Notes under the pieces: model-generated
The model's input: only the letters and a program-made list of their open reading frames with translations
What the model was told of the DNA's origin: nothing
Database searches by the model: none
Part shown: in pieces, positions 1,873-24,354 of the stretch
Layout: each line of letters opens with the position of its first letter
Position numbering within the stretch: position 1 is the first letter of the stretch
Program-made: the position numbers and the translations under genes
NCBI GenBank assembly: GCA_016342585.1
Contig: JAEINK010000002.1
Span: 62,001-126,000 of the forward strand
DNA from: Spirochaetales bacterium
GTDB lineage: Bacteria; Spirochaetota; Spirochaetia; UBA9216
DNA: 64,000 nt
Direction of reading: 5' to 3'

Positions 1873-3246
1873 CTAAAAAATATACTTAAACTCCAGGGCA
1901 ATATTCCCGTTATCCTTCCACGTTTTATAGTGAGAATCCTTCTCTCCGCCGAAGAGCTGCCCTGATACACTTATTTCCATATCATCTACAGGGTAGTAGA
2001 AGAGCTCTTGAGTTGCCATCCAGCCGCCTGCCTCTACAAGATATACTCCTCCTATCCGCAGTTTAAATTTTTCTTTACCGAAAGGAAGATCCAATGCAGG
2101 AATGATATTGGTCGTGGTTGGTTTATCATCATAAGCGGCCAGAAAATCCACATCGGTGTCCGTAAGATCATTGTAATTAATTACATAGGTTTCTGTTGCC
2201 TGGATGGAGAAAAAAAGGTTTGTTCCCGGTAATGTAAAATCTACCCCCCCCAGGCATACCAGGCTGTTGTTGTATAATTCGGGTTGATCTCCTTTAAAAT
2301 CTTCGGTCAGCCAGTATCCCGCCTCGGCCCTGAAGGTGAAGGGACCTGCTGCCCAGCCGGCTTCCAGCCCGAAGAGGTGAGCTCGGGTGTAAACAAGCTC
2401 GGTGGATACGGTATAGTGGGTTGGATCATAGGGATCTGTTCCTGTGAATTCGCTTTCGACTTTATAACCTGGTTCAGGTTTATATCCATAATAGTACTGG
2501 CCCCCCAGATCCATGGAACCCAGGACAGTCGTATATCTGATTGCTCCGGTAAAATCTGCAATTCCTCCCCTTTCTCTGATCGTAAGGTTTGGGAAATCTG
2601 CCGGATTAACCAATGCCCAGCGCCCGTCATCCGCTATAGTGTAGCCCTCGAACATGGGGATATAGATAAATTCCGCCAGGCCGTTTGCACCGGTGTAGAG
2701 GTTCAACTTCACCATATTCATGGGATCTTTCATTTCATTGATATCCGGAACAATACCACCGGATTGATTTAAGGGGTTAATATTGTCAATCACATGGATA
2801 CCGTCTCCTTTTCCCCATTCTACTTTTTTAAGACCCGCTTCAAGGTAGCCAGCCGAAAAGAAATAGCGAAGGTACATCTCATCGATCATTTCTTCTGGTG
2901 CAACATCCGGATCAAGGGTCCAATCATCGACTTTAAAGGAGGCAAAACCTTCCAAATCTCCTGCAACAGGTGCAATATCAAGCTTCATTCGGGGGCTTGT
3001 GGTGAATTCGCTATTCAGACCCTCATTAAGATAACTTTTCATGGTGAGTCCAATTTCGCCTGAGATGTTGACATTTAGTACACCGGAGGTATATCCCCCA
3101 TCCGAAATAATATCCTCTTCCGATTCAACAGCTTCATCGGTTCCGAAAATATCGGTGAATCCATCCTCCTGGCCAAAGAGTACTCCTGTTGAAGTCATCA
3201 TGACCAAGAGTATCCATACTAGGCTTATAAAGATATTCCGTTTCAC
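1873..3246 (-). CDS. Outer-membrane beta-barrel protein of the RND export operon
   Basis: 457 residues with an N-terminal signal peptide (cleavage near FGQEDG). Alternating amphipathic strands rich in Tyr and Gly run to the C-terminal FKYIF, a classical terminal aromatic strand. It contains LKKVEWGKGDGIHVID followed by an INPL segment, which resembles the barrel proteins (DUF1302-like) found next to RND exporters in proteobacteria. The start codon is GTG and overlaps the preceding stop as TAGTG, so translation is probably coupled to the LolA-like gene. It is last in the operon exporter, carrier, barrel. I infer that it is the outer-membrane receiver or pore for whatever the exporter moves; the substrate is unknown. 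Confidence 0.72.
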   Translation of the reverse strand: MKRNIFISLVWILLVMMTSTGVLFGQEDGFTDIFGTDEAVESEEDIISDGGYTSGVLNVNISGEIGLTMKSYLNEGLNSEFTTSPRMKLDIAPVAGDLEGFASFKVDDWTLDPDVAPEEMIDEMYLRYFFSAGYLEAGLKKVEWGKGDGIHVIDNINPLNQSGGIVPDINEMKDPMNMVKLNLYTGANGLAEFIYIPMFEGYTIADDGRWALVNPADFPNLTIRERGGIADFTGAIRYTTVLGSMDLGGQYYYGYKPEPGYKVESEFTGTDPYDPTHYTVSTELVYTRAHLFGLEAGWAAGPFTFRAEAGYWLTEDFKGDQPELYNNSLVCLGGVDFTLPGTNLFFSIQATETYVINYNDLTDTDVDFLAAYDDKPTTTNIIPALDLPFGKEKFKLRIGGVYLVEAGGWMATQELFYYPVDDMEISVSGQLFGGEKDSHYKTWKDNGNIALEFKYIF

Positions 3247-4016
3247 TAGGGTCTCCCTGTCTGTAGAAAATTTGTTGTGAAATATCCCGGGTTAATCGGG
3301 ATGTTATATTTGACCTGTCTCATTTCCAGAATGGTCTGGTGGTTCGATGATAGGGTTTTCATGGTGGTCCTGGCGGCTGACCAGAAGCCATCCGTCTCTC
3401 GTAAACCCTCCATGGTTAATTCTTTTATTTGTGTGGTGCCGTCATCGTCATAGAACTCAACCTTCAAGGTCAGGTAGGTCTCCTTATCCACCCAGCTGAT
3501 AGTCTTCCCATAGTTTGACTCTTTCCCCTGTGCGGAAACCGATTGAATTACCCAGCAGGATCTACCAGAGAATATTTCATCCCGGAGAATTGTGAAATCT
3601 GAATGATCCAGATCATTACCTCCCATATCCGCATAGGTAAAGTCCGAGCCCATGAAGGAGCCGTCTCTCTCCCCCGAAGCGATCCTTTTTATTTTTCGCA
3701 GGGAGGGGAGGTAGATCCACTGATCATCATCCCTCCCGTCGTTCTGAACTGTAAGAAATCGTGTGTTTCGTACAGTCGCGGGTTCTAAAAAAAGAGTAAT
3801 GGTCTTTACCATTCCATTCTCTTCCATTGTCAGGGTCTGGATCCTCCGGGTACTTATATTTCCCCGGCTGTCTATCAGGTTCATTCGAATATCCATGGCC
3901 GAACTTGCGGGTTTTTGGTTGTCCATAACCTTCTCCATTATCTCCCTTCCCGTCTGTGCGGACAGGGGCAGCAGGAGGGCGAGGCCCATCAGGCCGTAGA
4001 GCAGCTTTCTTCCCAT
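3246..4016 (-). CDS. LolA-like outer-membrane lipoprotein-sorting protein
   Basis: 256 residues with a signal peptide (MGRKLLYGLMGLALLLPLSA) and a periplasmic domain of the outer-membrane lipoprotein-sorting family (COG2834, LolA fold). Recognisable stretches are WIYLPSLRKIKRI, a SFMGSDFTYADM segment, a central SCWVIQ strand and a C-terminal VKYNIPINPGYFTTNFL. It is about 50 residues longer than canonical LolA and matches the LolA-like proteins that accompany RND exporters. It starts inside the last codons of the exporter gene (28-base overlap) behind an AAGGAGAAAG site. Expected to bind lipid or lipoprotein cargo in the periplasm between exporter and barrel; cargo unknown. Confidence 0.82.
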   Translation of the reverse strand: MGRKLLYGLMGLALLLPLSAQTGREIMEKVMDNQKPASSAMDIRMNLIDSRGNISTRRIQTLTMEENGMVKTITLFLEPATVRNTRFLTVQNDGRDDDQWIYLPSLRKIKRIASGERDGSFMGSDFTYADMGGNDLDHSDFTILRDEIFSGRSCWVIQSVSAQGKESNYGKTISWVDKETYLTLKVEFYDDDGTTQIKELTMEGLRETDGFWSAARTTMKTLSSNHQTILEMRQVKYNIPINPGYFTTNFLQTGRP

Positions 4017-6784
4017 TCTTCTTTCTCCTTTGTCTTTATCTCTTTATCTATATTTTTGAAAGGTATTTTCATTCCATTGAGCAGCATTGGCAGGATGATC
4101 AAGGCCGATGAAGCGGCAAATACCATGGCTACAGCGAAGAGGATTCCCATTTGCCGTATGGGGATAAACCTTGAAAAGAGGAGTCCCAGAAACCCTAGGG
4201 CCACCGAAGAGGCATTGAATAGTATCGCTCTTCCTGTGGTCCGGTATACAGCGGTTAGAGGCGACAGGTTTCCTGTGATTAATTCCCTGCGGTATGCCGT
4301 CATGAAATGTATAGCGTAATCTACACCGATACCGACCGCCAGGGCTGCCAGGAGGGAGGTGACGATATCCAGATTAAATCCAAAAAGAACCATAAAGGTG
4401 AATATTCCGGATATGGCAAAGAAAACGGGGATCATCCCGATGGAGCCGGTTTTCACCGAACGGAAGAGTATGATCAGGATGACCCACACGATCAGAAGGG
4501 CCATACCGAGTGATATTAACTGGGATCTCGCTACCAGGTCCGATAGAACCACGTTGAATAGTGATTCTCCTGCAATCTCATAGGACCACCCCTCAGGTAG
4601 ATAATAGTCCCAGTAACCGCTTATCTCACGATTGACGGCTTTTATGTCCCTGCTCGATTCCGCGTTGGTCTGAATCGATATTAGGATCCTGTCCGGTTCC
4701 AAAGGATCGTTTAACATCATACTGAGCGACCCTGAATAGAGGATCATATATTGGGAGAGCATATTCTCGAGTTCTTCCCCCGATGAAAATCCATATTTAG
4801 CAGGCTCTTCGGGGATCTCATCGAAGGCGGCTCCTTCATAGTTCTTTATTGATAGAAACGCTTCCACGAGGGCTTCCGCAGTAATTTCGGGGTTCCTTCC
4901 GCTCTCTGCATCATTTACAGCACCGCTATTCAAAGCTTGTTTCAACATGGCGGCAATCTCCTGATAGATCAGGTCGGGATTATCAGTCAATATTGGTGTT
5001 TCCAAAAACCCGGTGCTATTCCCTGCCGGGAAATCACCCCGGAATCCGTTATTGGCTAAGGCTTTGCCTTCTGCTGAAACACTGTCATCAGTAAAAAAAC
5101 TATCTTCAGAAAAAAATCCCTCCTCGGCGAAGAAATCAATCGCTTCCTCTTCCCCTGTTTGCATCTCGTAGGGGATTCGGTCGTAATTCATGATCTTGTT
5201 CATCCGCTTTATCCCCGGGATTATAGATTGAACTTTGGTTACCTGCTCAGCCTGGTTCGGGAGCCATTTTTCAAAATTTTCAAGATTCGCCAGGAAGGGA
5301 GGATTCAGAACACCCCCTTTTTGGGGTGATCGGATAGCCAGAGATATGAATCCTGTCCCATTTAGTTTCTCATTGAATATTTCGGTATCTTGTACCATCT
5401 TCGAATCGGCCGTAAAAAATTCAATTAAATTTGTTCCGATTGTAATCCTGGGGATAAGGAGGAGCGTCGATCCGAAGAGGAGCATCGATAGAATAATAAT
5501 GGGCCATCTCCCTTTTTTTACGATTTTTTCCATTAACAGAAAGACTCCTGTACTGGAAGTCTTCTCATCCAATTCTTTCACTTCCCGGATCTTCCCGAAT
5601 TTCCGGGGATCCAGTCCGTTTGGGTATCGCAGTCGGATCATGGCTGGAATCAGGAAAAAAGTTAAAAGGAGGGAAAAGCATATCCCCGCCGCACTCATTA
5701 TTCCAAAAACACGGAAGGGCTCCAGCGGGCTTGAAAGTTGGGAAAGGAATCCCGCGGCGGTGGTTACTCCTGCCAGGATTACAGATATTCTGATTTTTCC
5801 GGTCTCCGATTCAAGCAGTTTGTTTAAGTGCATAGGATCTATCGGTTTATCCTCTGTGGCTAATGCCTCATAGAAATGGGCCATTATGTGAATACCATAG
5901 GCGCTTCCCACGACAAGGAGGAGTACCGGTATGAGGATGGAAGCCATAGAGAAGGTTATCTGCAAAAAACCCATCAGACCCATAACCCATATACAGGAAA
6001 CGGCCAGAGAGATAACCGGGAACAGGACTCCTTCAGGTTTTCGGAAGGAGAAGAAAAGAACCACTATAATAAGGAAGGCGGCGATGGGGACAAGAAAGAT
6101 AACATCCCTGAATACACTTCTGCTTATTTCCTTATTTATAACCGGTTTTCCCGCCATGGGAAAGCTTAGATCCTGGTCGCTGTACCCGGTGCCGTTGTAC
6201 TCAGCGCCGCTGTACTCAGCGCCGCTGTACTCAGCGACAAGCCCCTCCATATATTGATATATGGCCGCTGTTTCTTCTTCCGAAGCCCCTTTGTCCGGTT
6301 GGATGATTATGGCCGCAAGGCTTCCATCCCGGGATATAACCGTTCCCTCATACATTTGTCTCCAGTCATTCAACCGGTATCTAAAACTGGCCAGCTCCTC
6401 TTTTGAGAATCCCTCGAGTATCGAATGAACCTCCATCCCTTCGGCGGATGATTCGATAAATTCCATATTGGTAAGGGATATAACCTTATTTACCTTTGGA
6501 TATTCTTCCAGTTTCTGGGTGATTTCATCAATTATAATAAGGTTTTTCTCATCCAGAATAGAGGTGAATCTGGTTTCAATACCAAGAAGAATGGAATCTG
6601 AGGCACCAAATTCTCCTCTGATCTCATCATTAATCTCTCTTGTCTGGTTTTTCTCAGGGATGAACACTTCAATTGAACTATCGATATTAAGTTTTCCAAG
6701 TTGAACTGCGGCAAGGGCTGTCAGGATAATGACTACCGTGACAATTAGTAAATCAATTCCTCTTCGGACTTTCACACCTTTCAT
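3989..6784 (-). CDS. RND superfamily exporter (MMPL/HAE3 type)
   Basis: 931 residues with a duplicated RND design. There is one TM segment at residues 12-32, a periplasmic loop to about 225, a five- to six-helix cluster at about 228-390, a TM near 425-445, a second long periplasmic loop to about 730, and a final helix cluster at about 740-905 containing the GxxxDYAIHF signature typical of this family. This fits the HAE3/COG1033 exporters that move lipids or hydrophobic compounds using the proton gradient. The first loop carries a tandem AEYSG repeat (15-base unit, three copies, about 6197-6241). The second loop has an acidic, Phe-rich insert near residues 545-570. Transcribed with the LolA-like and barrel genes; the LuxR-type regulator lies upstream. 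Confidence 0.88.
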   Translation of the reverse strand: MKGVKVRRGIDLLIVTVVIILTALAAVQLGKLNIDSSIEVFIPEKNQTREINDEIRGEFGASDSILLGIETRFTSILDEKNLIIIDEITQKLEEYPKVNKVISLTNMEFIESSAEGMEVHSILEGFSKEELASFRYRLNDWRQMYEGTVISRDGSLAAIIIQPDKGASEEETAAIYQYMEGLVAEYSGAEYSGAEYNGTGYSDQDLSFPMAGKPVINKEISRSVFRDVIFLVPIAAFLIIVVLFFSFRKPEGVLFPVISLAVSCIWVMGLMGFLQITFSMASILIPVLLLVVGSAYGIHIMAHFYEALATEDKPIDPMHLNKLLESETGKIRISVILAGVTTAAGFLSQLSSPLEPFRVFGIMSAAGICFSLLLTFFLIPAMIRLRYPNGLDPRKFGKIREVKELDEKTSSTGVFLLMEKIVKKGRWPIIILSMLLFGSTLLLIPRITIGTNLIEFFTADSKMVQDTEIFNEKLNGTGFISLAIRSPQKGGVLNPPFLANLENFEKWLPNQAEQVTKVQSIIPGIKRMNKIMNYDRIPYEMQTGEEEAIDFFAEEGFFSEDSFFTDDSVSAEGKALANNGFRGDFPAGNSTGFLETPILTDNPDLIYQEIAAMLKQALNSGAVNDAESGRNPEITAEALVEAFLSIKNYEGAAFDEIPEEPAKYGFSSGEELENMLSQYMILYSGSLSMMLNDPLEPDRILISIQTNAESSRDIKAVNREISGYWDYYLPEGWSYEIAGESLFNVVLSDLVARSQLISLGMALLIVWVILIILFRSVKTGSIGMIPVFFAISGIFTFMVLFGFNLDIVTSLLAALAVGIGVDYAIHFMTAYRRELITGNLSPLTAVYRTTGRAILFNASSVALGFLGLLFSRFIPIRQMGILFAVAMVFAASSALIILPMLLNGMKIPFKNIDKEIKTKEKEEWEESCSTA
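6197..6241 (-). repeat. 15-base tandem repeat inside the RND exporter
   Basis: Three copies of a 15-base unit (plus-strand GTACTCAGCGCCGCT, the last copy with changes) encode AEYSG repeats in the first periplasmic loop. The unit is a multiple of three, so copy-number change would alter loop length without a frameshift. Confidence 0.85.
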
Positions 6785-6855
6785 GATGCCTCCTTAAATT
6801 TCAGGATAGTCCTTGGGGGTATGATTTTAAATCACACGAGGGGAGTATATTTTAT

Positions 6856-6894
6856 CACCTTAGGAGGTGTTTCTCGGCTTCACCTAACCGGGTG
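6856..6894 (-). promoter_or_regulatory. Pair of 14-base palindromes upstream of the exporter operon
   Basis: Two related dyads read CACCTTAGGAGGTG (6856-6869) and CACCTAACCGGGTG (6881-6894). They are spaced 25 bases centre to centre, in the gap between the LuxR-type regulator and the RND exporter. On the transcribed strand both fit CACCYSSTWAGGTG. A weak -10 candidate (TAAAAT) lies just downstream without a good -35, the layout expected of an activator-dependent promoter. The adjacent LuxR-type protein is the obvious candidate ligand (inference). Confidence 0.5.
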
Positions 6895-6920
6895 ATGTGT
6901 TTCGGGGATGGCTTTCTGGT

Positions 6921-7859
6921 TCAAATGGTCCGGGTTTTATTAATAAGTTGTATTCTATTGGTAACCTTCAGTTTCGCGTAAATATTCTTTATATGGGTTT
7001 TTACCGTATTGATTGATATAAACAGTTCTTCACCGATCTCCTTATTCGTTTGTCCTTTTATGACAAGACTGATTATCTCTATTTCGCGCTTTGAAAATCC
7101 AGCTTGTATCAGTCTATCGGATTGGGGCTCCAGATTGCCAGGTTCCGGCTCATATTTTCTAATGTAATGCCTGCTTATAAAGAGGTAGATATTTACACAG
7201 AAAGTGGCGTAGGAGAGGTAGGTCAGTTTGAAGGCCATCCCCTTGAAAAAGAGCATATCCAGGGTGAAAAAAGGGAGGAGGGGGAGAAATGTAATGGCAA
7301 TCCCCCTGAGCATGTTCTCCTGCTCCCTGTTTTCGGCATATTTCAGATAGAAGAGGGATGTGATCCCGTGGGCCGAAAGGAGAAAGCTGCCGGTTAGGAA
7401 GAGATCCTCAAGTACCAGGTCCATAGCGGATAACCAGTCCCCTTCATTTATAAAGAAGACGGCAAAGAGGCAGGATAGTAGATATATAAAACTTATGACA
7501 TTGATGATCCTGTACGCCAAAACTTTTTGTTTCCTCGGGATTGGCAGGAGTTCGGTCAGGTATCTGCTTAGAAAGAAGAGTATGGCTGCAGAACACAATA
7601 TAGATGTGAAGGTCGCCAGGAGTGCAAAAGTTAAATAGGAGGAACCATTGCTGAGGAGAGGAATTTTCACCCGATTCATATAGGTTTTAATCATATTCAG
7701 ACCCGACTGAATCATGAGAGGAAACAGTACCCCCAGAAATCCTTTTAAATACTTGTCGGAAACTCTATGATAGAGAAGAACGCAGAGTATGGTTATCGAG
7801 AAAATCAGGGCAGTAGTAATAAATAGTAGAAAATCCAGGGTTATTGTAATTACCGGCAA
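6921..7859 (-). CDS. Membrane-anchored LuxR-family transcription regulator
   Basis: 312 residues. The N-terminal two thirds hold about seven hydrophobic segments, suggesting a membrane-embedded sensor. After a short linker the C-terminus (about 245-312) is a clear LuxR/GerE helix-turn-helix: FSKREIEIISLVIKGQTNKE, then EELFISINTVKTHIKNIYAK and a KLKVTNRIQLI tail. There is no phosphoacceptor receiver domain. It is directly upstream of the RND exporter on the same strand with a 136-base gap that holds two palindromes, so it probably controls that operon in response to a membrane or lipophilic signal (inference). Confidence 0.8.
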   Translation of the reverse strand: MPVITITLDFLLFITTALIFSITILCVLLYHRVSDKYLKGFLGVLFPLMIQSGLNMIKTYMNRVKIPLLSNGSSYLTFALLATFTSILCSAAILFFLSRYLTELLPIPRKQKVLAYRIINVISFIYLLSCLFAVFFINEGDWLSAMDLVLEDLFLTGSFLLSAHGITSLFYLKYAENREQENMLRGIAITFLPLLPFFTLDMLFFKGMAFKLTYLSYATFCVNIYLFISRHYIRKYEPEPGNLEPQSDRLIQAGFSKREIEIISLVIKGQTNKEIGEELFISINTVKTHIKNIYAKLKVTNRIQLINKTRTI

Positions 7860-7872
7860 ATTATGGTTACCT

Positions 7873-7891
7873 CACTATAATAATTTTAGTG
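7873..7891. promoter_or_regulatory. Inverted repeat between LuxR-type and radical SAM genes
   Basis: CACTA and TAGTG flank a 9-base AT-rich centre containing a perfect TATAAT on the plus strand (7876-7881), in the divergent gap between the LuxR-type gene and the PflX-like gene. No convincing -35 is visible at the right distance. Confidence 0.3.
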
Positions 7892-7958
7892 TATGTATTG
7901 GGATTGTGCTATCAATTTTTATAATCGTCCCCTTTTCGGGTGTAAAAACAGGAGATTC

Positions 7959-8921
7959 ATGAACAGTTACAGGGAGCTATATAAATCGTGCCGACTGTGT
8001 CCCCGGGAGTGCCGGGTCGATAGAAGCGCCGGGGAGACGGGTTTCTGCGGTGAGTCTGATGAGATGCGGCTTGCCTGGGCTGGGCTCCATAAGGGGGAAG
8101 AACCTCCTGTTTCCGGTGCGAAGGGATCAGGAACCCTCTTTTTTACAGGATGTACCCTGCGGTGTGCCTTTTGCCAGAACCGGCAGTTGAGCCGGGGGGG
8201 AACCGGAAGGGTTGTCTCCCCCCGGGAGCTGAGCGATATTATGCTAAGCCTTCAGGATGAGGGGGCTGAAAATATCAACCTGGTAACAGGCAGTCAGTTT
8301 ATTCCCGGGATCCTGGAAGCCCTGAAATTGGGTGAAGAGGGGGGCCTTTCTTTACCCCTTGTCTGGAACACCTCCGGGTATGAAAAACCTGACTCCCTTA
8401 AACTCATGGAGGGGCGAATCAACCTCTGGCTCCCCGATATGAAAACCCTCGATTCCAACCTATCCAACAGCCTCTTTCATGCTCCGGATTATCCTGAATG
8501 GGCATCCCGCAGTATTCATTTCATGGCTGCGAGCGGGGTTTCCGGTCTTCCCTGGGAAGGAGCGTCTGTGAAGATGATCCTTCGCCATTTAATCCTTCCC
8601 GGCTTTTCGGATTCTACCGAAGAGGTGTTAAAATGGTATGCAAAACTCATGAAAAAGGGTGGTTCATTTCTCCTCTCCCTCATGACTCAATACACTCCTG
8701 TCCGGGGTGGAGATACTACCGCCCCCGGAAGGATGCTGACCGGGGATGAAGCCCTTATGGTGTATGATCTACTGGATGAATTGGGAATAGAAGAGGGATT
8801 CTTCCAGGGCCCCCCGGAAGAGGAGGTCCATGATGAAAATAATAATTGGGAACCGGATTTCAACAGGGACAATCCATTCCCGGAAGGATGGGCAAGATGT
8901 CTCTGGCACTGGAAGAATTAA
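7959..8921 (+). CDS. PflX-like radical SAM protein
   Basis: 320 residues from the ATG at 7959, chosen because GGAG sits five bases upstream and the protein then begins directly at the conserved Cys-rich N-terminus; an upstream in-frame start at 7893 has no such site. It begins with a four-Cys segment (SCRLCPRECRVDR, then GFCGE) before the radical SAM motif GCTLRCAFCQN (CxxxCxxC). Later parts include VWNTSGYEKPDSLKLM and PDMKTLDSNLSN. This is the architecture of COG1313 (PflX), relatives of pyruvate formate-lyase activases, whose substrates are generally unknown. Divergent from the LuxR-type gene; its last four bases overlap convergent rsmE. Confidence 0.85.
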   Translation: MNSYRELYKSCRLCPRECRVDRSAGETGFCGESDEMRLAWAGLHKGEEPPVSGAKGSGTLFFTGCTLRCAFCQNRQLSRGGTGRVVSPRELSDIMLSLQDEGAENINLVTGSQFIPGILEALKLGEEGGLSLPLVWNTSGYEKPDSLKLMEGRINLWLPDMKTLDSNLSNSLFHAPDYPEWASRSIHFMAASGVSGLPWEGASVKMILRHLILPGFSDSTEEVLKWYAKLMKKGGSFLLSLMTQYTPVRGGDTTAPGRMLTGDEALMVYDLLDELGIEEGFFQGPPEEEVHDENNNWEPDFNRDNPFPEGWARCLWHWKN

Positions 8922-9685
8922 TCCAATAGTCCCATTTCTGCCAGGCAGAGTGATACTCCCGTTACCGATGCTGTTTCGGTTCGAAGGACCCGCTTACCCA
9001 TACTCACAAGATTTATGTTCTTTTCACGGAAGAAGTTTCTCTCATCGGAGGACCAGCCCCGTTCGGATCCTATCCATAGAATAACCTCAGGCCGCCCCTT
9101 TCCGAAACTCAATTCGCTGCATATGAAACTCTTTAAAGAAGCTTCCGCCTCATAGTTATCCAGACAGGCACTGATTAGATTTCTCTGTTTATTCGGATCA
9201 TTTCCTTCCGAAATGAGTGTTTCTACAGCCCTTTTCAGTGTGTAATGGACCTTCACATCAGGCAGCCTGGTACAGAAAGCCTGCTGTGCTCCCTCTATAA
9301 GGAAGGGCTTGTAACTTTCTTCCTTATATATGGAGGAGTTCAGGTAGGCTTTCTCTCCCAGTTCCGTGCCGAAGAAGTGAATTTGACTAACGCCAAGCGC
9401 TGTGATCTCTTTCAGTATTTTTTTTGCTGTCTGTGGCCTCCCGGCACCAACAGCCAGAATTATGGATGGCAGGGGGGGAGGCGTTTCCTGAGGGATGAAC
9501 TCAAGGTTCAGGCCTTTTTCGGTTTCACCCGTAATTTTTGCCTTTCCCTTTTGTCCATTTATAATCCCGGCGTCGAAATCTTCAAAATGATCCCTTTTCA
9601 GGACCTTCTTGAGATGTTGAGCCCGGGGATCGGAATGGGGAAGGGGGGAGTCAAACTCCCCATCCTCAAATAGTATCAGGTTCAT
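8918..9685 (-). CDS. rsmE: 16S rRNA (uracil-1498-N3)-methyltransferase RsmE
   Basis: 255 residues, the usual family length. The SPOUT methyltransferase C-terminal half shows WIGSERGWSSDE and the trefoil-knot SAM-binding motif MGKRVLRTETA. The N-terminal half is a PUA-like RNA-binding domain (HLKKVLKRD). It methylates U1498 of 16S rRNA in the assembled small subunit. It lies 12 bases downstream of the UMP kinase-like gene on the same strand and is probably co-transcribed. It overlaps the PflX-like gene by four bases at its 3' end. Confidence 0.93.
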   Translation of the reverse strand: MNLILFEDGEFDSPLPHSDPRAQHLKKVLKRDHFEDFDAGIINGQKGKAKITGETEKGLNLEFIPQETPPPLPSIILAVGAGRPQTAKKILKEITALGVSQIHFFGTELGEKAYLNSSIYKEESYKPFLIEGAQQAFCTRLPDVKVHYTLKRAVETLISEGNDPNKQRNLISACLDNYEAEASLKSFICSELSFGKGRPEVILWIGSERGWSSDERNFFREKNINLVSMGKRVLRTETASVTGVSLCLAEMGLLD

Positions 9686-9697
9686 TCAGCTTTACAT

Positions 9698-10390: not shown

Positions 10391-10516
10391 GGGGCATATT
10401 ATATCTACCGAAGGGGGCTGCGTCCACAGGTCCATCTGTATATCAATTTTCGATATGCTGTAATTCTATCGAATTTTCACTTTGAAATAGACGTTCATCC
10501 TTCATCCCGCTATACT

Positions 10517-14459: not shown

Positions 14460-14538
14460 TCAGAATCACATCTAAATCTGCCTCTTTCACGGGTAATACC
14501 TGTGGAAGAGGTTACTTTATTAATTCAGGTAAATTGGA

Positions 14539-15441: not shown

Positions 15442-15446
15442 GAAGG

Positions 15447-16700
15447 ATGAAAACAATGAATTGGCTTCAAGAAATAAAGAAATCCTTTTTAACTTCCCTC
15501 TGGTTTATGTTTCTCACATTTCCTTTGATGGTTATGAAAGTCTCCACTATCGGTGATAATAACGTAACTTTATATAGATGGAAGAATATGGTTCTGGTCG
15601 GCGTCGGTGCTTTCTTTCTCTCCTTTCTCTGGAGATGGGCCTTGGACCGAAAAGAGAATGGATCCCGGAAAGAGGTGGATGAAGATAAAGAGACTCCTTT
15701 GGCACGTGTCAGGAGGATTTTTAATAAACCCAGGGTTAAGCTTCCAAGTATCAGTGGATTGATAATCCTGGTTGCTCTCTTTCCGTTTATAACCTCCATG
15801 TATCAAACGAATATTATGATCTCCGCCCTTATTTATATAATGCTGGGATTAGGTCTGAATATCGTTGTCGGACTTGGTGGACTCTTAAATCTCGGGTATG
15901 CGGCGTTTTATTCTGTAGGTGCCTATACTTATGGATTGATGTTCAGGTATTTAGCCGGCTTTTTAGGCGGAAATCTGGATGGTCTTCTTTTCTGGATTGC
16001 CCTGCCACTGGCGGGAATCACAACGGCAATCGCAGGTATTCTTCTTGCTTTACCGGTATTAAGGCTCCGTGGTGATTATCTCGCTATTGTAACCCTGGCT
16101 TTTGCTGAAATCGTCAGGATGCTCGAGACAAATCTTGATACGATAACACTGGGTCCTTCGGGTATTCCCGGTATTCCAAGACCCTGGTTTTTCGGTTTGA
16201 AGATGACCCCTATGAATGCCACAAAGGTAATCTATTTTATTATTATCGTCCTGGTTATACTCACGATTTTCATGGTCAGGCGGCTTGAAAACAGCCGTTT
16301 GGGAAGAGCCTGGGAGGCGAGACGTGAAGATGAAATCGCCTGTGAATCAATGGGTATTAATATTACCAAGGTTAAACTTTCGTCCTTTGCCCTCGGTGCT
16401 GTGTGGGCAGGTCTGGCAGGAGTCCTTCTTGCCGCAAAAACCACAGTTATCAATCCCAATAGTTTTACAATATGGGAATCTGTTATCGTTCTCTGTGTAA
16501 TTGTTCTTGGAGGAATGGGTTCGATTCCCGGTGTAATCACTGGTGCGCTCATTATTATCCTCCTGCCTGAATATCTTAGAGCTTTCTCTGAATATAGAAT
16601 GCTTATATTTGGAATTGTTTTAGTTGTAATGATGATTTTCCGACCGGGTGGATTCATCCCCAAGGTGCGAACGTTCTATAAGTTCAAGGAGGATGAATAG
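15447..16700 (+). CDS. livM: LivM-type ABC permease
   Basis: 417 residues with about ten TM segments. The first two (residues 13-70) and a highly charged loop near 70-100 form an N-terminal extension before the core permease. Core motifs are GLGLNIVVGLGGLLNLGYAAF, LRGDYLAIVTLAFAEIVR and the coupling loop SRLGRAWEARREDEIACESMGI. The LivM partner of LivH. Starts six bases after livH behind AGGA and ends one base before the livG start codon. Confidence 0.94.
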   Translation: MKTMNWLQEIKKSFLTSLWFMFLTFPLMVMKVSTIGDNNVTLYRWKNMVLVGVGAFFLSFLWRWALDRKENGSRKEVDEDKETPLARVRRIFNKPRVKLPSISGLIILVALFPFITSMYQTNIMISALIYIMLGLGLNIVVGLGGLLNLGYAAFYSVGAYTYGLMFRYLAGFLGGNLDGLLFWIALPLAGITTAIAGILLALPVLRLRGDYLAIVTLAFAEIVRMLETNLDTITLGPSGIPGIPRPWFFGLKMTPMNATKVIYFIIIVLVILTIFMVRRLENSRLGRAWEARREDEIACESMGINITKVKLSSFALGAVWAGLAGVLLAAKTTVINPNSFTIWESVIVLCVIVLGGMGSIPGVITGALIIILLPEYLRAFSEYRMLIFGIVLVVMMIFRPGGFIPKVRTFYKFKEDE

Positions 16701-16701
16701 C

Positions 16702-17481
16702 ATGGCGGATAATATACTTAAAGTATCCGATATGAGCATGGTCTTCGGTGGTCTTCGGGCTGTTGATACTATGAATGTTGAGATCAATAAGGGGGAGATC
16801 GTTGCTTTGATCGGCCCTAATGGTGCCGGAAAGACAACCTTCTTCAACTGTCTTACCGGTGTTTATAACCCTACCGAAGGTGAGGTTGTTATTACTCCTG
16901 ATGGTGGCGCTGGAAAGAAAATAAACGGTTTGCGCCCGGATATTATAAATGGGCTTGGTTTAGCAAGAACTTTTCAGAATATCAGGCTTTTTTCCAATAT
17001 GTCTGTTTTGGAAAACGTAATGATTGGCCGGCATCAGCTTCTAAAGGCTGGAATCTGGGGTGCTATTACCAGAAACAAGAAAACCAGGGAAGAGGAGGAG
17101 AAGGTCCTTCATGATTCATATGAGATCCTTAAGAAGATTAAACTTGAGAAATATGTAAATGATCTGGCAAAGAATCTTCCCTATGGTGCCCAGCGAAGGC
17201 TTGAGATTGCCCGTGCTATGGCAACCGACCCCTTCTTACTCCTGCTCGATGAACCAGCGGCTGGTATGAACCCTCAGGAAACACACGATCTTGTCGATAT
17301 GATCAACTGGATCAGAGATAATGAAGATATGACCATCCTGCTGATCGAGCATGATATGAGTCTTGTTATGACCCTGTCGGAAAATATCTACGTAATGGAT
17401 TACGGTAAGCTGATTGCTCAGGGGGCACCCGATGAGATCAAAAATAATCCTGCGGTTATCAAGGCTTATCTGGGAGAATAG
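16702..17481 (+). CDS. livG: LivG ABC transporter ATP-binding protein
   Basis: 259 residues from the ATG at 16702, chosen because AAGGAGG ends nine bases upstream; in-frame starts at 16648 and 16693 would lie inside livM or abut the ribosome-binding site. Walker A is GPNGAGKTTFF, signature LPYGAQRRLEIARA, Walker B LLLLDEPAAGMNP, H-loop IEHDMS. The C-terminal AYLGE tail is typical of LivG/LivF. Energises import of branched-chain amino acids. Its Walker region is followed by the long LivG-specific helical insert (MIGRHQLLKAGIWGAITRNK). Confidence 0.95.
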   Translation: MADNILKVSDMSMVFGGLRAVDTMNVEINKGEIVALIGPNGAGKTTFFNCLTGVYNPTEGEVVITPDGGAGKKINGLRPDIINGLGLARTFQNIRLFSNMSVLENVMIGRHQLLKAGIWGAITRNKKTREEEEKVLHDSYEILKKIKLEKYVNDLAKNLPYGAQRRLEIARAMATDPFLLLLDEPAAGMNPQETHDLVDMINWIRDNEDMTILLIEHDMSLVMTLSENIYVMDYGKLIAQGAPDEIKNNPAVIKAYLGE

Positions 17482-17484
17482 AAA

Positions 17485-18192
17485 ATGCTTAAACTTAATG
17501 ATGTTAAAACCTACTACGGCAATATACATGCCCTTAAGGGAATATCCCTTGATATAAATGAAGGTGAAATTATTACCCTGATTGGTGCCAATGGTGCTGG
17601 AAAGAGTACAACACTTATGTCTATCTGCGGAATTGTTCCCCCGCGGTCTGGCAGTATTGATTTTGAGGGGCATGAACTCACTACCATGGCTCCCGACAAG
17701 ATTGTCCAGCTTGGTGTTGTTCAGGTTCCTGAGGGACGACGGATTTTTCCGGATTTAACTGTTCAGGAGAATCTTGATATGGGGGCTTTCTTGAGAAATG
17801 ATAAGGATGCCATAAAGAATGAGCTTCAGTATATCTATGAACTCTTCCCTATCCTTGCCCAGAGGCGAAACCAGCCTGGTGGAACTTTAAGTGGGGGCGA
17901 ACAGCAAATGCTGGCCATCTCCCGAGCCCTCATGACCCAGCCAAAACTTCTGCTTCTGGATGAACCTTCATTGGGTTTAGCTCCCATAATTGTGCAGCAG
18001 ATTTTTGAGATTATCAAAAAGATCAACAAGGAGCAGGGTACAACGATATTTCTGGTTGAACAGAATGCCAACCAGGCCCTGAAGATCGCCCACAGGGGGT
18101 ATGTTATGGAGAATGGCGCCATTACCCTGACCGACACATCGGAAAAGCTTCTTGCCAATGATGAAGTGCGAAGAGCTTATTTGGGTATTTAA
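17485..18192 (+). CDS. livF: LivF ABC transporter ATP-binding protein
   Basis: 235 residues. Walker A GANGAGKSTTLM, signature TLSGGEQQMLAISRAL, Walker B LLLLDEPSLGLAP, H-loop VEQNANQAL. VPEGRRIFPDLTVQENL is characteristic of LivF. Starts three bases after livG, so the two ATPases are translated together as a heterodimer. Last gene of the liv operon, followed by a terminator. Confidence 0.95.
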   Translation: MLKLNDVKTYYGNIHALKGISLDINEGEIITLIGANGAGKSTTLMSICGIVPPRSGSIDFEGHELTTMAPDKIVQLGVVQVPEGRRIFPDLTVQENLDMGAFLRNDKDAIKNELQYIYELFPILAQRRNQPGGTLSGGEQQMLAISRALMTQPKLLLLDEPSLGLAPIIVQQIFEIIKKINKEQGTTIFLVEQNANQALKIAHRGYVMENGAITLTDTSEKLLANDEVRRAYLGI

Positions 18193-18225
18193 GATCATTC
18201 TTTAATATTTAAACTTTAAAATTAC

Positions 18226-18266
18226 AACCCTCCGAAACCCTTTTGGATTACCCGGAGGGTTTTTCT
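18226..18266 (+). terminator. Terminator of the liv operon
   Basis: AACCCTCCG and CGGAGGGTT form a 9-base stem with an 18-base loop, followed by TTTTCTTT, 34 bases after the livF stop. Confidence 0.85.
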
Positions 18267-18318
18267 TTATAAATGGTTATAATGGTAATGAGTATAATTT
18301 CTCGGGAGGATAATAATT

Positions 18319-19236
18319 ATGGATAAATACAAAACTATATATCAGGATATGAGAATCTCCCGTCTGGCCCTTGGCTGTATGCGGATTGCAGACCTTTCTT
18401 CATCACGGGTGGCAGAACTGATTAATTCAGCAATGGAGGTTGGAATAAACTTTTTCGATCATGCGGATATCTATGGGGGAGGGAAGTCGGAAGAGGTTTT
18501 TGCCGAGGCCTTTGGAATGACCCCCATTAAGAGAGAGGATGTTATTCTACAATCCAAATGCGGGATCTGTGACGGGTATTACGATTTTTCCCGGGAACAT
18601 ATTCTTGCCTCTATCGATGGCATCCTAAAAAGGCTTAAAACCGATTATCTTGATGTCCTGCTTCTCCATAGACCGGACACACTCATGGAACCCGAGGAGG
18701 TCGCTGCGGCCTTCGACCTTCTTCATAGTACCGGAAAGGTGAGATATTTCGGCGTCAGTAACCAGAATCCCATGCAGATAGAACTTCTTAAAAAATATGT
18801 TTCCCAGGATCTTCTGTTTAACCAGCTTCAGTTAAGTATTATGAGATCAGGAATGATCGATGCAGGCTTAAATGTGAATATGAAGGTTGAGAACTCTTAT
18901 GTTCATGATGGTGCTGTCCTTGATTACTGCCGGTTGAATGATATCACCATACAGGCCTGGTCCCCCTTCCAATATGGATTCTTTGAAGGGATCTTTTTGA
19001 ACAATGAGAAATTTCCGGACTTAAATAAGCGGATAGATGAACTCGCCGAAAAGTATAATGTAACCAATTCTGCAATCGCGGTCGCCTGGATTCTCCGCCA
19101 TCCTGCTGGAATTCAGGCTATTCTCGGATCAACAAACCCAGGCCGCATTTCTGATATGGCGAAGGCTCTGGATTTAAATCTGACCCGGCCCGAGTGGTAT
19201 GCTGTTTATCGGGCCGCGGGGAATAAGCTGCCATGA
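18319..19236 (+). CDS. Aldo/keto reductase
   Basis: 305 residues, a single TIM-barrel NADPH-dependent oxidoreductase. The catalytic tetrad is visible: Asp and Tyr in FDHADIYGGG, Lys in LQSKCG and His in LLHRPD. The cofactor segment reads AILGSTNPGRISDM. Closest in style to the YdhF/oxidoreductase subgroup (RLALGCMRIAD; MIDAGLNVNMKV). Starts behind GGGAGG. Monocistronic, directly after the liv terminator and converging on the ABC export operon. Physiological substrate unknown. Confidence 0.9.
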   Translation: MDKYKTIYQDMRISRLALGCMRIADLSSSRVAELINSAMEVGINFFDHADIYGGGKSEEVFAEAFGMTPIKREDVILQSKCGICDGYYDFSREHILASIDGILKRLKTDYLDVLLLHRPDTLMEPEEVAAAFDLLHSTGKVRYFGVSNQNPMQIELLKKYVSQDLLFNQLQLSIMRSGMIDAGLNVNMKVENSYVHDGAVLDYCRLNDITIQAWSPFQYGFFEGIFLNNEKFPDLNKRIDELAEKYNVTNSAIAVAWILRHPAGIQAILGSTNPGRISDMAKALDLNLTRPEWYAVYRAAGNKLP

Positions 19237-19241
19237 TTCTA

Positions 19242-20381
19242 TCAATATGAATATCCGGCCCCCACTGTGATAGACATCCCAGCCTGATTTTCCGGGTTGA
19301 ATATATCTGCCGATTCTCCGGTCTGGAAAGAGTAGTATCCGAAAAGATTCAGTTCTTCATAGATATTCCAACTGACACCCGCGGTTGTATTAGCCGAGAT
19401 ATCGATGGGTGAAATAATCGAACTGACTGTGAATACAGTAGTACTTCCCGGGATGAAACTGATCGAAGGGTAGAGGTAGAGACCATACTCTTCTGTTTCA
19501 TCGGCCTCCGCATTGTACTCTTCAAATTGAGCTGATGGTTTTAATAGAAATTCGAGTTGCCAGGATAGGGTTTTATCCCCTGTGTACCCAAGCATGTGGT
19601 CCCAGGAGGCTCCTCCGGTAATCTTGAGGCTCTCCTCCATCGAAGTGGTAGAAAAACCATTTAACTCAATTGTGGTCGAGGCGGAAAGGTGCCAGTTTAT
19701 CGGCATAATTCCTTCAAGGCTGATATAAGCCCGCTGTCCTGCGGTACCCAGGCCGGCAATGGCACTTCCTCTGTATAGGTAGCCAGCCTGAAGATTAAAG
19801 TCTCCTGCCTCGAAACTTACCCTCCCTCCGGCGGAACCATCACCGATCTTTGGAAGGACCGGTTCGGCTGGATCTGATAGATCAATACTTCCCGGGAGGA
19901 GGATTATCTCTAAAAAAGAGAAGTCTCCCAGAGGGAAATCGGCACCGGTTAGCCAGGCTGTTTCCGATCTTGGATCATTGGATCTTGTATCGAAACTGAT
20001 CGAATCTGATCCGAAGATGATATCCCCCGCATTGAAGGCAAATCCTGCTCCCCAGGTGGTTCTTGTTTTTCCCAGGAGTATGCGTACGTCACCGAAGTAG
20101 GGGCGGACATAGAGTTTTTTCAACCCCGGGAGCATTTGTCCTCCTGCTTCGCTGATATCCAGGGCGACCTCGCCTTTCACCTCCCTTGAGCCGGTGCTCC
20201 TGAATGAGAGGCCGGCTTTTCCATACATTATATAGCTCCACTCCTTTTCGATGCCGTTGAGGCTGTAGAGGCTGTTGTAGAACTCTGTGTCTGCCGAAAT
20301 CCTGATTTCTGCCGTTAGCATCGCGGTAGCTATAAGTGAGAAGAGCGAAAATAATACTGTTTTTAAAAAAAGTCTGTTCAT
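19242..20381 (-). CDS. Outer-membrane beta-barrel protein of the ABC export operon
   Basis: 379 residues with a signal peptide (cleavage near TAEIR), amphipathic beta strands throughout and a C-terminal aromatic strand (TVGAGYSY). It contains LGKTRTTWGAGFAFNAGD, strikingly like the LKKVEWGKGDGIHVID stretch of the barrel in the RND operon, so the two may be distant relatives. It is the last gene of the five-gene ABC operon, starting four bases after the permease stop. Inferred to be the outer-membrane partner of that exporter; strand count and function are not established. Confidence 0.7.
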   Translation of the reverse strand: MNRLFLKTVLFSLFSLIATAMLTAEIRISADTEFYNSLYSLNGIEKEWSYIMYGKAGLSFRSTGSREVKGEVALDISEAGGQMLPGLKKLYVRPYFGDVRILLGKTRTTWGAGFAFNAGDIIFGSDSISFDTRSNDPRSETAWLTGADFPLGDFSFLEIILLPGSIDLSDPAEPVLPKIGDGSAGGRVSFEAGDFNLQAGYLYRGSAIAGLGTAGQRAYISLEGIMPINWHLSASTTIELNGFSTTSMEESLKITGGASWDHMLGYTGDKTLSWQLEFLLKPSAQFEEYNAEADETEEYGLYLYPSISFIPGSTTVFTVSSIISPIDISANTTAGVSWNIYEELNLFGYYSFQTGESADIFNPENQAGMSITVGAGYSY

Positions 20382-20385
20382 ATGA

Positions 20386-21654
20386 TCAGTCCATCCTCAG
20401 ATTGTCCGGTATATCTTTTTTAAGCATCCGATGCGTAGGAAAATAGGCGGCTAAAGAGCTTACAATGATGGCTAAAACTCCTCCGGTAAGAAAGGATTTC
20501 GGTGACCAGACTCCTTTCATATGAGAATCAATCACTATGTTTCCAAAATTAATAAAATCATCTGTTACATTCATCATTGCCCCATAATTGAGTCCATGAT
20601 TAACCATAAAAATATTTAAAAGAGCTCCGAGAATAAGACCCGCAAGCGTACCGACAATCCCTATTCCACCCGCCTCCAGGAAAAACATGAGTTGAATTGT
20701 CCTGTCTGTTACTCCCTGGGCCCTGAGCATCCCGATCTCTCTTCGGCGTTCAAAAATAGCCATCATCATTGTGTTGGAGATTCCAACTGCTGCTATCAGA
20801 AAAATCAGGAACAGAAAGAGGGTGACAAAACTGTCTTCCATCTCCTGCATGGCCATGAAATCCGACGCTATCTCTTCATACCCCAGAAGTTCGTACTCAT
20901 CGGGGAGTTTTTCTTTTAACTCTTCCAGCCTGACTATGCCGCTTCTCCCGGCGGGAACCTTGATCGAGTAGCTCGTGACAGAGCCATCCATCTCAAGGTA
21001 GTAGTCTGCTGCATCTATGGCAAGGAATACACCTTTTATATTTATCAGGTGATTCTCTGTTTTAATGATGCCGATCACTTTTGTACTCAGCACCTCCTGA
21101 TACCCCATTTTCCCCGAGAATTGGAGTCTCACCGGATATCCGATTTCGATCCCAAGCTTGTTTGCCAGAACATTCCCCACTATAATCCCGTCATCTCCCT
21201 CTTTCAGGAATTCACCCCGGCTGTATTCATTGTTTATGGAATCAGCCAGCTTAAAGATATCGCCGTCTCTTACCGGATCCACTGCGGTTATCCTTGTGGG
21301 ATAAACCCCGTCCTCGGGGAAGGGATCCTTATAGAAGACAAGATCCGCCAAAAATTCCGTTCTGGGAGTATATTCAATTTCCAGTTCATCAAGGAGAGCG
21401 GTTATCGATTCTGTATCCTCAATTGATTGACTTAAAGGGAGCCTCTCTTTTTCAGTCCACCAGCTCTTCTTTACTATCTTTCCTGAGGCCACTTCGTAAT
21501 CCATATACTGTTGATAGGTTTTTCCATACCATCCTTCCAGGAGAGAATCCATGAAGATGTAGAATATGAGGCCAATAGCAATGGCAACGGCGGTTATCAG
21601 GGTTCTTTTCTTATATCGCAGCAGGTTTTTTACAGCCATTTTCAAAATAAGCAT
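20386..21654 (-). CDS. FtsX-type ABC permease (second subunit)
   Basis: 422 residues with the MacB/LolC-E layout. One TM is at residues 18-38, then a periplasmic domain of about 220 residues, then three TM segments near 275-295, 325-350 and 385-405. ISNTMMMAIFERRREIGMLRA is the conserved FtsX cytoplasmic segment that touches the ATPase. It pairs with the other FtsX permease of the operon, giving a LolCE-like heterodimer. Separated from the LolA-like gene by 11 bases. Likely moves lipoproteins or lipids out of the inner membrane; cargo unknown. Confidence 0.87.
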   Translation of the reverse strand: MLILKMAVKNLLRYKKRTLITAVAIAIGLIFYIFMDSLLEGWYGKTYQQYMDYEVASGKIVKKSWWTEKERLPLSQSIEDTESITALLDELEIEYTPRTEFLADLVFYKDPFPEDGVYPTRITAVDPVRDGDIFKLADSINNEYSRGEFLKEGDDGIIVGNVLANKLGIEIGYPVRLQFSGKMGYQEVLSTKVIGIIKTENHLINIKGVFLAIDAADYYLEMDGSVTSYSIKVPAGRSGIVRLEELKEKLPDEYELLGYEEIASDFMAMQEMEDSFVTLFLFLIFLIAAVGISNTMMMAIFERRREIGMLRAQGVTDRTIQLMFFLEAGGIGIVGTLAGLILGALLNIFMVNHGLNYGAMMNVTDDFINFGNIVIDSHMKGVWSPKSFLTGGVLAIIVSSLAAYFPTHRMLKKDIPDNLRMD

Positions 21655-21665
21655 GGTTTCCTCCT

Positions 21666-22394
21666 TTATCTGGTTAATTCCCTTCTGGTGAATTTACTAT
21701 CAGGGATCGGAATATTCAGTTCGACTTTATCGATGAAGATTTCCGAACTGACTCCCCGTCGGACATCATCTGTCAGGATGATATCCGTGGCCATTAAGTG
21801 CCCATTAAACTCATCGACCTGTCGGATTACCATTGTCTTCAAAGGCTGGTTACTTCTGGTGAACATTTCTATCCTACGCATTATGAAGGTCTCTTTTTCG
21901 ATCCACACTATCTGAACCGGATAGGCGACCCTCTTCCTTCTTTTTACCTTCATGGCGATCCTGTAGCAGAGTATACCTTCCAGGTTTTCCTCCCCTTCGA
22001 GGGTCACATCGTAATTCTCCAGCATCCCGGATTCGTCGGTCACATCTTCATAGGAAATCAGCCCTGCAATCGAATCTCCCTTGCTCTTGGTAAAGATTGC
22101 CTCTGAATCCGGAAAAAAGTGGTATATCCGGTCTTCTGTCCTGAGGATCTTTTGTCCGTACTCTGCATCACTGGTAAATTCCATCAGGAAGTTGGTTCCC
22201 TCAGACCAGGCTGAATAGGCAATGGTTTTTGTGCCGAATCTGTCGGTGTTCACCATTCTTGATTCGGTGTAGGCACTTTCGTAATTCATCATTTCATCCG
22301 TTCGTGCAACTATCTCCTCGGCAGATTGGGCTGTCACTGTCTGGAAAGCGGCTATAAGGATAATTGATAGTATTAATATGATAGTTCTTTTCAT
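21666..22394 (-). CDS. LolA-like outer-membrane lipoprotein-sorting protein
   Basis: 242 residues: signal peptide (to about VTAQS) and the LolA-fold domain of COG2834, with the family-type helix AEEIVARTDEMM, strands YHFFPDSEAIF and VAYPVQIVWIEKETFIMRRIE, and a C-terminal VELNIPIPDSKFTRREL. The tail parallels that of the LolA-like protein at 3246-4016 (VKYNIPI...FTTNFL). It sits between the two FtsX permeases in the operon, which suggests it takes cargo from them across the periplasm. Cargo unknown. Confidence 0.82.
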   Translation of the reverse strand: MKRTIILILSIILIAAFQTVTAQSAEEIVARTDEMMNYESAYTESRMVNTDRFGTKTIAYSAWSEGTNFLMEFTSDAEYGQKILRTEDRIYHFFPDSEAIFTKSKGDSIAGLISYEDVTDESGMLENYDVTLEGEENLEGILCYRIAMKVKRRKRVAYPVQIVWIEKETFIMRRIEMFTRSNQPLKTMVIRQVDEFNGHLMATDIILTDDVRRGVSSEIFIDKVELNIPIPDSKFTRRELTR

Positions 22395-22406
22395 AATAAG
22401 GCTCCT

Positions 22407-23666
22407 TTATGTTGATCTAATGGCTTCAACCGGTTCGATTGTTGCCGCCTTTCTGCAGGGAATAAGTGTTACCATGGCGGAAATTATGATCGTATAGATG
22501 GTCATTAAAATCACATGATATGCTTTAAGGTCCGGGTATATTATATTGGAGACCTCCATATCCATCGATCCCATGGCTGAGGAGAAATCGAGTCCTGTTT
22601 TTTCTGCCGCAAGGATGATGATGACTCCCAGGCTTACTCCAATAACTGCGCTTATTATTCCGGCAAAGAGTGATTCCAGGAAGAAGAGTCTAACCAGATC
22701 ATTGGGTGGCATCCCCATGGCTCCCAGAATCCCTATCTCCCTGTATCTTTCATAAATCACCATCATTGTTGTATTAATGATTACAGTGGCTCCCATAAGG
22801 AGGAAGAATATTATCATAAAGTTATACGTGATTTCGGCGATACCCATCATTCCATAGAAATCACCCTGATCCTTCCAAAGGGCGGTATCCAGATAATTTA
22901 AACTGCTGTCTGCCGAAAGGATTTTATCTATATTTGCCAACTGAATTTCCGCTGTCTCCGGATCTTCGGTCATTATAATGATTTCCTGAGCACCCCCTTT
23001 CATCTGCATCAGGTCCTGCATTACATCAAAGGGTAGAATGAAGTGGGTGTTGTTCATACTTCCCATGGGGAAATCGACAATCCCTGTAATCTCGAGGGTC
23101 ATGGCATTTACCCCGCGGGATGCTGTGGCAGTCATAAACGAAAATTTATCTCCAGGACCAAGGCCCGTTTTTTCAGCCAGTTTATACCCAATGATGGTTT
23201 CTCTCCGCCCTTTCAGGGGAAGCCTTCCCCCTATCAGAAGTGAACCGGGATCAAGTATGTTTTTTTCCTCATCGATATTTATACCCATTCCCACGGCGAT
23301 ATACTCCTCCCCCGGTTCATCATCCAGGGGGGTATCATCAATATAGATTTTACCTCCGGCAGTGGTTCTCCCCAGTGCCTGGCTTACTCCCTCTATTTTT
23401 AACAGCTCCCTTCGGACTTCCTTTTCATTTTCTACATAGAGATGGACAGGGTTCAGATAATCATATTTTCCATAATCCCTGTGACGGATCTGAATGGCAC
23501 CGGTATAGTAAGCCAGAATATTTCTTTTCATATCGGTTTTCATCCCTGTAACAAGGGCTAACATGAAAATCCCCAGAATACAGGCCAGCACAATCGTTGA
23601 AATGGAGAGGACCGTTCGTTTTTTGTTTCTGGCAAGGTTCCTGAAGGCAATTGTTGATAACCTCAT
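22407..23666 (-). CDS. FtsX-type ABC permease (first subunit)
   Basis: 419 residues from the ATG at 23666, one base after the ATPase stop; a further upstream in-frame codon would run into the ATPase gene. Layout as in LolC/E: MRLSTIAFRNLARNKKRTVLS, TM near 20-42, a large periplasmic domain, then TM segments near 270-290, 320-345 and 385-408. INTTMMVIYERYREIGILGAM is the FtsX contact segment. Forms the exporter with the other FtsX permease and the ATPase. Confidence 0.87.
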   Translation of the reverse strand: MRLSTIAFRNLARNKKRTVLSISTIVLACILGIFMLALVTGMKTDMKRNILAYYTGAIQIRHRDYGKYDYLNPVHLYVENEKEVRRELLKIEGVSQALGRTTAGGKIYIDDTPLDDEPGEEYIAVGMGINIDEEKNILDPGSLLIGGRLPLKGRRETIIGYKLAEKTGLGPGDKFSFMTATASRGVNAMTLEITGIVDFPMGSMNNTHFILPFDVMQDLMQMKGGAQEIIIMTEDPETAEIQLANIDKILSADSSLNYLDTALWKDQGDFYGMMGIAEITYNFMIIFFLLMGATVIINTTMMVIYERYREIGILGAMGMPPNDLVRLFFLESLFAGIISAVIGVSLGVIIILAAEKTGLDFSSAMGSMDMEVSNIIYPDLKAYHVILMTIYTIIISAMVTLIPCRKAATIEPVEAIRST

Positions 23667-23667
23667 A

Positions 23668-24354
23668 TTACGCCCCCTCTTTGACCGTATCTTCGGTAAC
23701 AAGACCATCGTGAAGAAGGACAAGCCGCCTGGCGTAATCCATAACCATCCTGTCGTGGGTCGAAAAAATAAAAGTGGTCTGGTGTTTTTCGTTCATCTCT
23801 TTCATCAGTTTGAGTATATCTTCCCCGGTATGAGAGTCCAGGTTCGCGGTAGGTTCATCGGCCAGGATAATCTTCGGATTCTTGATAAGAGCCCTGGCAA
23901 TCGCCACCCTCTGTTGCTGCCCTCCCGAGAGGCGTGAAGGCCTTCTGTCCTCCATCCCTTCAAGACCTACCTCTCTCAGGAGGGCCAGGGTCTTCTCTTT
24001 GACCTCTTTCTTGTTTTTGTTGATAAGAGAGAGGGCGAAGGATACATTTTCAAAGGCGGAGAGGACAGGGATCAAATTGTAGCTCTGGAAAATAAACCCC
24101 AGTTCATTTCTTCTGAATGCCGCCTTTTCGAGTTTGGACAGATCACCCACATTCTGCCCCTCAATGGAAACTTTTCCTCCATCCAGTTTATCGATGCATC
24201 CAATGATATTCAGGAGGGTCGTCTTTCCCGAGCCTGAGGGGCCGGCAATGGAGATGAACTCTCCCTTCTTAATCAAAAGATCTACACCCCGGAGGGCTTC
24301 GACTTTTAAATCTCCCGCAATGTATGTGCGCTTAACGTTTTCAACATTGATCAT
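23668..24354 (-). CDS. LolD/MacB-type ABC transporter ATP-binding protein
   Basis: 228 residues. Walker [13 protein letters not shown], signature [16 protein letters not shown], Walker [14 protein letters not shown]-loop STHD. The [22 protein letters not shown]-loop segment is typical of the LolD/MacB group. First gene of a five-gene operon (ATPase, FtsX, LolA-like, FtsX, barrel), with a strong promoter and operator immediately upstream. Powers cargo extraction from the inner membrane. I avoid naming it lolD because the operon could handle a specialised cargo. Confidence 0.92.

Follow-up and report, generated by a model that had tools for sequence, protein, structure and literature searches.

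Two putative envelope export operons of a Spirochaetales bacterium combine unrelated engines with homologous carriers and outer-membrane barrels

A 64,000-nucleotide stretch of a Spirochaetales genome (the window) carries two operons, each encoding an inner-membrane engine, a LolA-like periplasmic protein and an outer-membrane barrel. One engine is an RND exporter and the other an ABC transporter. The question raised by the locus is whether the outer parts of the two operons are the same and, if so, whether they can serve either engine. The first-pass annotation had leaned towards yes on both, and had suggested an interchangeable lipid or lipoprotein pathway in spirochaetes. Its gene content for 1873-6784 (exporter, LolA-like protein, barrel) was confirmed, all three genes lying on the minus strand. 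At 19242-24354 the ATPase, two FtsX permeases, LolA-like protein and barrel it listed are all present, with the amendments that the carrier gene lies between the permease genes and that the start of the first permease was corrected. The genes are as follows.

1873..3246, minus strand: outer-membrane barrel of the RND set, 457 aa; 18 strands predicted by AlphaFold2 (pLDDT 84.8), C-terminal F
3246..4016, minus strand: LolA-like periplasmic carrier of the RND set, 256 aa; PF17131 2e-61, DUF1329 4.5e-11
3989..6784, minus strand: RND/MMPL exporter, HAE3/HpnN-like, 931 aa; Pfam MMPL 7e-38
19242..20381, minus strand: outer-membrane barrel of the ABC set, 379 aa; 18 strands predicted by AlphaFold2 (pLDDT 83.9), C-terminal Y
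20386..21654, minus strand: second FtsX/LolC-E-type permease, 422 aa; FtsX 5e-22
21666..22394, minus strand: LolA-like periplasmic carrier of the ABC set, 242 aa; PF17131 8e-36
22407..23666, minus strand: first FtsX/LolC-E-type permease; FtsX 3e-17, MacB_PCD 1e-9
23668..24354, minus strand: ABC ATPase of LolD/MacB type, 228 aa; Pfam ABC_tran 4e-34, Walker A GPSGSGKT, signature LSGGQ

The RND exporter carries the motifs GSAYGIH in TM4 and GVDYAIH in TM10. Its top NCBIfam model is HAE3 (TIGR00921; 214 bits, below the cut-off of 352) and its nearest solved relative is HpnN. The carrier of this set has a signal peptide without a lipobox; its gene overlaps the exporter gene by 28 bases, and the GTG start of the barrel gene overlaps the carrier stop. 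A LuxR-type regulator with a multi-helix membrane domain is encoded at 6921-7859, and the RND operon starts just downstream on the same strand. The operon encodes neither a periplasmic adaptor nor a TolC-type duct, its carrier being LolA-like and its barrel 18-stranded. As adaptor and duct are missing from both operons, an AcrAB-TolC (HAE1 tripartite) pump was ruled out for the RND set. MacAB-TolC was likewise ruled out for the ABC set, which has a separate ATPase, two permeases, a LolA-like carrier and a barrel.

In the ABC set, translation of the first permease gene most likely begins at ATG 23666, immediately after the stop codon of the ATPase gene, rather than at TTG 23723 where the open reading frame begins. 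The nearest solved relatives of this permease are LolF, LolC and LolE, followed by MacB. The Lol models are matched below their cut-offs: the ATPase scored 225 bits against LolD (TIGR02211, cut-off 308) and the permeases 94 and 104 bits against LolC/E (TIGR02212, cut-off 362), the second permease giving the 94. The position of the carrier gene between the permease genes (20386-22394) is apparently shared by the closest relatives, L105 and L106; the usual order in other ABC sets is ATPase, permease, permease, carrier, barrel. The ABC sets L101, L081, L084, L088 and L098 encode not two but three or four FtsX permeases.

LolA-fold carriers are known binders of hydrophobic cargo. Both window carriers exceed the curated PF17131 cut-off of 30 bits, at 207 and 124 bits; the family is widespread, yet PF17131 is named in a single paper of the open literature searched. 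The two proteins share 25% identity across half their length, and comparison of their family profiles (hhalign E 3e-46 over 240 columns) establishes homology. The tail pattern noticed at first sight is real and belongs to PF17131 (F-T/S-x-x-x-L in both families); the GSDxxYxDM core is the stronger shared motif. Solved relatives of the RND-set carrier are 9tp6 and 3bk5. The RND-carrier profile is the better match for these two and for 4z48, and the ABC-carrier profile for 3buu.

For the barrels, pairwise comparison was insufficient. BLASTP of the two window proteins gave E 0.15, which is not significant, a Pfam search of both gave no match, and the LptD (PF04453) and FadL (PF03349) models matched nothing. 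Homology was therefore settled by family profiles with controls, Omp85 being taken as control barrel since the FadL model had no matches. The profiles align end to end, and the mature parts scored 70.5 in hhalign (E 9e-9). Including the signal peptides inflates the score (E 5.8e-13), so the weaker figure was used. Comparisons of both families with BamA barrels and reversed profiles scored at most 23, which is background. The similar barrel motif of the first-pass annotation, not significant in the pair alone, holds in the families: the W-G of W-G-x-G is invariant at the same place, after the fifth strand, among the 27-29 relatives of each. AlphaFold2 predicts 18 strands for both barrels, in models that draw on 29 and 27 relatives (mean pLDDT 84 and 85). 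Profile comparison and predicted folds, the check suggested at the outset, thus gave homologous 18-strand barrels and not unrelated folds. The claim that two unrelated engines share common carrier and barrel families is borne out by the two profile comparisons with controls at background.

The barrel relationship extends to other genomes, in which RND-set and ABC-set barrels match each other directly (to 3e-10). One phmmer cluster takes 53 of 58 set barrels (27 RND, 24 ABC), and the window families are also bridged by ABC-set relatives such as L084-L096 (E 5e-18 and 3e-10). The last residue is F, Y or W in 51 of the 58, against 13% of other open reading frames. Several RND barrels of the family pass the DUF1302 cut-off, up to 7e-18 for a barrel on contig C78 of the same genome; the window RND barrel has no DUF1302 match itself, and comparison of its family with the DUF1302-positive RND barrels gave E 8e-40. 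The barrel family is therefore placed near AmeA of Castellaniella.

Conservation of the gene sets was then apparent from their neighbourhoods. Of the eight PF17131 genes of the own genome, RND sets hold five and ABC sets two; one is an orphan. The 12 kb spacing of the two window operons is correct and not special, since six further carrier copies lie on other contigs, five of them in engine sets. The orphan (L014:8282-9112, contig C9) adjoins a response regulator and a sensor kinase, with no pump and no barrel. PF17131 is present in 92 of 120 genomes of the phylum; the Borrelia-sized genomes among those searched had no match. Among 67 spirochaete PF17131 loci, 61 adjoin an engine (30 RND-linked, 31 ABC-linked) and 6 have none; both engine kinds occur in 12 of 26 spirochaete genomes. 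A barrel lies alongside in 28 of the 30 RND loci and 26 of the 31 ABC loci. Homologs of the ABC-set barrel were found in 77 of 198 class genomes and of the RND-set barrel in 81 of 198; wherever the fetched flank was long enough, carrier or permease adjoin the former, and RND and carrier the latter. The spirochaete survey thus found conserved neighbourhoods. Restricting the design to spirochaetes was too narrow: about 13 other phyla have ABC sets, and the gene content is unchanged in those of Aminicenantes, Bacteroidota, Thermodesulfobacteriota, Myxococcota, Cloacimonadota, Fidelibacterota, KSB1 and further groups; the barrel is recognisable in only some of these non-spirochaete sets. TetR_N proteins stand beside sets of both kinds (9 of 10 chosen neighbours tested).

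The barrels might instead be ordinary porins or uptake channels that sit in these operons by chance, the carriers delivering directly to the outer membrane. Foldseek gave MOMP, porins, Wzi and AlgE for the ABC-set barrel, and porins and AlgE for the RND-set barrel, with MOMP and Wzi also among the best solved folds. Likeness to all four is about equal, so that an import or pore role is possible. Genome G056 (1,139,633 bases), the size of that of T. pallidum, encodes an RND and PF17131 carrier pair (L058:7360-10821) and no barrel of the set family anywhere; the barrel is therefore not always required. Against chance placement, carrier and barrel are neighbours in almost all RND and ABC sets, and the barrel family, with its DUF1302 relatives, is specific to such sets. 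We consider this explanation quite unlikely.

Whether the engines are interchangeable was addressed with trees of the two common parts. The homology of carriers and of barrels favours a plug-in design in which both accept either motor. On the tree of 61 labelled spirochaete carriers the label changes once, against a shuffled mean of about 22, and in the bootstrapped tree a branch supported at 92/83 sets the ABC carriers apart. The count remains one among 102 labelled carriers after addition of 41 ABC-linked carriers from other phyla, which came through an ABC query. None of 80 loci drawn by the ABC-carrier profile has an RND engine alone beside the carrier, the non-spirochaete loci in such a draw being biased to ABC. 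The barrel tree also splits by engine, with two changes: an RND set on contig C11 falls within the ABC barrels, and two long-branch ABC barrels are placed, weakly, close to the RND side. The C11 set (L013:6366-11338, own genome, with a TetR gene) has a barrel that matches only ABC-set barrels (to 3e-10), and favours free exchange as a possible cross-engine hybrid and exception to fidelity; searches with its barrel gave weak relatives only, so it stays a lead. These results make an exchangeable design very improbable, and as regards evolution the sequences largely refute it; the interchangeability proposed at first was not upheld, given the single change on the carrier tree and barrels that sort by engine apart from few exceptions. 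The best reading of the trees is that each engine has been tied to its own carrier and barrel subfamily since before the spirochaete phylum diversified, as the one change on the carrier tree is nearly repeated on the barrel tree.

A separate history of function must also be considered. On this view the ABC set works as an auxiliary Lol pathway for lipoproteins, the RND set effluxes hydrophobic compounds, the cargoes are unrelated and the likeness of the outer-membrane ends is historical. The permeases are nearest to LolF/LolC/LolE, the ATPase to LolD and the RND to HpnN/HAE3; there has been no engine swap since the ancient split, and accessory Lol-like sets have been proposed in Borrelia (PMC13078400). 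The outer-membrane end, however, is a porin-type barrel, neither LolB-like nor Slam-like, and several ABC-set copies per genome would require several lipoprotein classes. Canonical LolC-D-E on contig C95 and LolA on contig C33 exist besides; the better C95 pair is also under the NCBIfam Lol cut-offs, at 226 and 199 bits. The same genes rule out the ABC set as the housekeeping lipoprotein route, and a lipoprotein pathway as the general role, one of the two options first suggested, thereby becomes unlikely. We hold the auxiliary Lol explanation to be unlikely as well.

Both operons are probably trans-envelope shuttle exporters of hydrophobic or amphiphilic cargo, two specialised branches of one design whose engines are not swapped at will. 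The proposed direction of export, the hand-over and the kind of cargo are modelled on LolA, HpnN and AmeD. The engine, either an RND pump driven by protons or a LolCDE-like ABC transporter of type VII, would extract the cargo from the inner membrane and load it into the hydrophobic half-barrel of the dedicated soluble PF17131 carrier. The loaded carrier would cross the periplasm, and the 18-strand barrel of the same operon would take the cargo from it and release it into the outer membrane or conduct it across. The cargo may be a lipid, a lipopeptide or a hydrophobic small molecule. Carriers and barrels of both kinds descend from common ancestors and occur in several copies per genome, often next to TetR regulators. 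In Porphyromonas/Prevotella, iron starvation raises the expression of operons with MMPL, an outer membrane lipoprotein-sorting protein and TetR 13- to 223-fold (PMC10434189). TetR neighbours in both set kinds and the induction of these similar operons suggest that the sets are used conditionally and do not serve a constant housekeeping role.

Each known system shares only part of this arrangement. AmeABCD of Castellaniella consists of an HAE3 RND, a LolA-superfamily DUF1329 protein and a DUF1302 outer-membrane protein (PMC6394551); the window RND set agrees in its HAE3-kind exporter and its LolA-superfamily carrier, and several RND barrels of its barrel family match DUF1302. It differs in that its carrier is PF17131 and not full DUF1329, its own barrel has no DUF1302 match, and AmeC, a second periplasmic protein, is absent from the three-gene operon. 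AmeD and HpnN are RND pumps for monoterpenes and hopanoids, respectively (PMC6394551). HpnN resembles the window exporter in subfamily and in a lipid cargo bound for the outer membrane, but works with no carrier or barrel from these families encoded alongside. Borrelia BBJ23-29 comprises a type VII ABC transporter, a LolA-like protein, an Omp85 barrel and TPR proteins (PMC13078400), and is likewise a spirochaete operon that combines a LolE-type ABC engine with a LolA-like carrier and a barrel. Its barrel is Omp85/BamA-like whereas that of the window is porin/DUF1302-like and at background against BamA profiles, so the systems are distinct; the window ABC set also has two different permeases and no TPR proteins. 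LolCDE-LolA shares the LolD-type ATPase, LolC/E-type permeases and LolA-superfamily carrier, and differs in the sub-cut-off scores of the window proteins, its separate genes in the genome and the dedicated barrel. The Porphyromonas/Prevotella operons agree, by their description (PMC10434189), in an MMPL-type RND, a 'lipoprotein-sorting' protein and TetR; they belong to Bacteroidota and hold extra ABC ATPase genes. A set of ABC transporter, PF17131 carrier and porin-type barrel was not found described as such in the open-licence papers searched.

The comparison also bears on Treponema. T. pallidum TP0790 has been modelled as an AcrB-type drug pump (PMC8407342), and its neighbour TP0789 is among the highly abundant proteins (PMC5015957). 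The RND of L058 has motifs like those of the window exporter (GSAYGIH/GVDYTIH), at odds with the AcrB assignment of TP0790 (PMC8407342). This suggests that TP0790 is a lipid-type RND working with the neighbouring LolA-like protein rather than an AcrB-type drug pump. AmeABCD-like RND sets, 'lipoprotein-sorting' ABC sets and TP0789/TP0790-like pairs come together here as one design with two engines, the choice of engine being ancient and stable. More tentatively, and with rather less than even confidence, the sets may represent an unrecognised export superfamily of many phyla, in which one outer half of carrier and 18-strand barrel was coupled in deep time to RND and type VII ABC engines as a general route by which lipids or lipid-like molecules cross the outer membrane with no bridge spanning the periplasm. 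The shared design would offer a testable way to the cargo of the PF17131 carriers.
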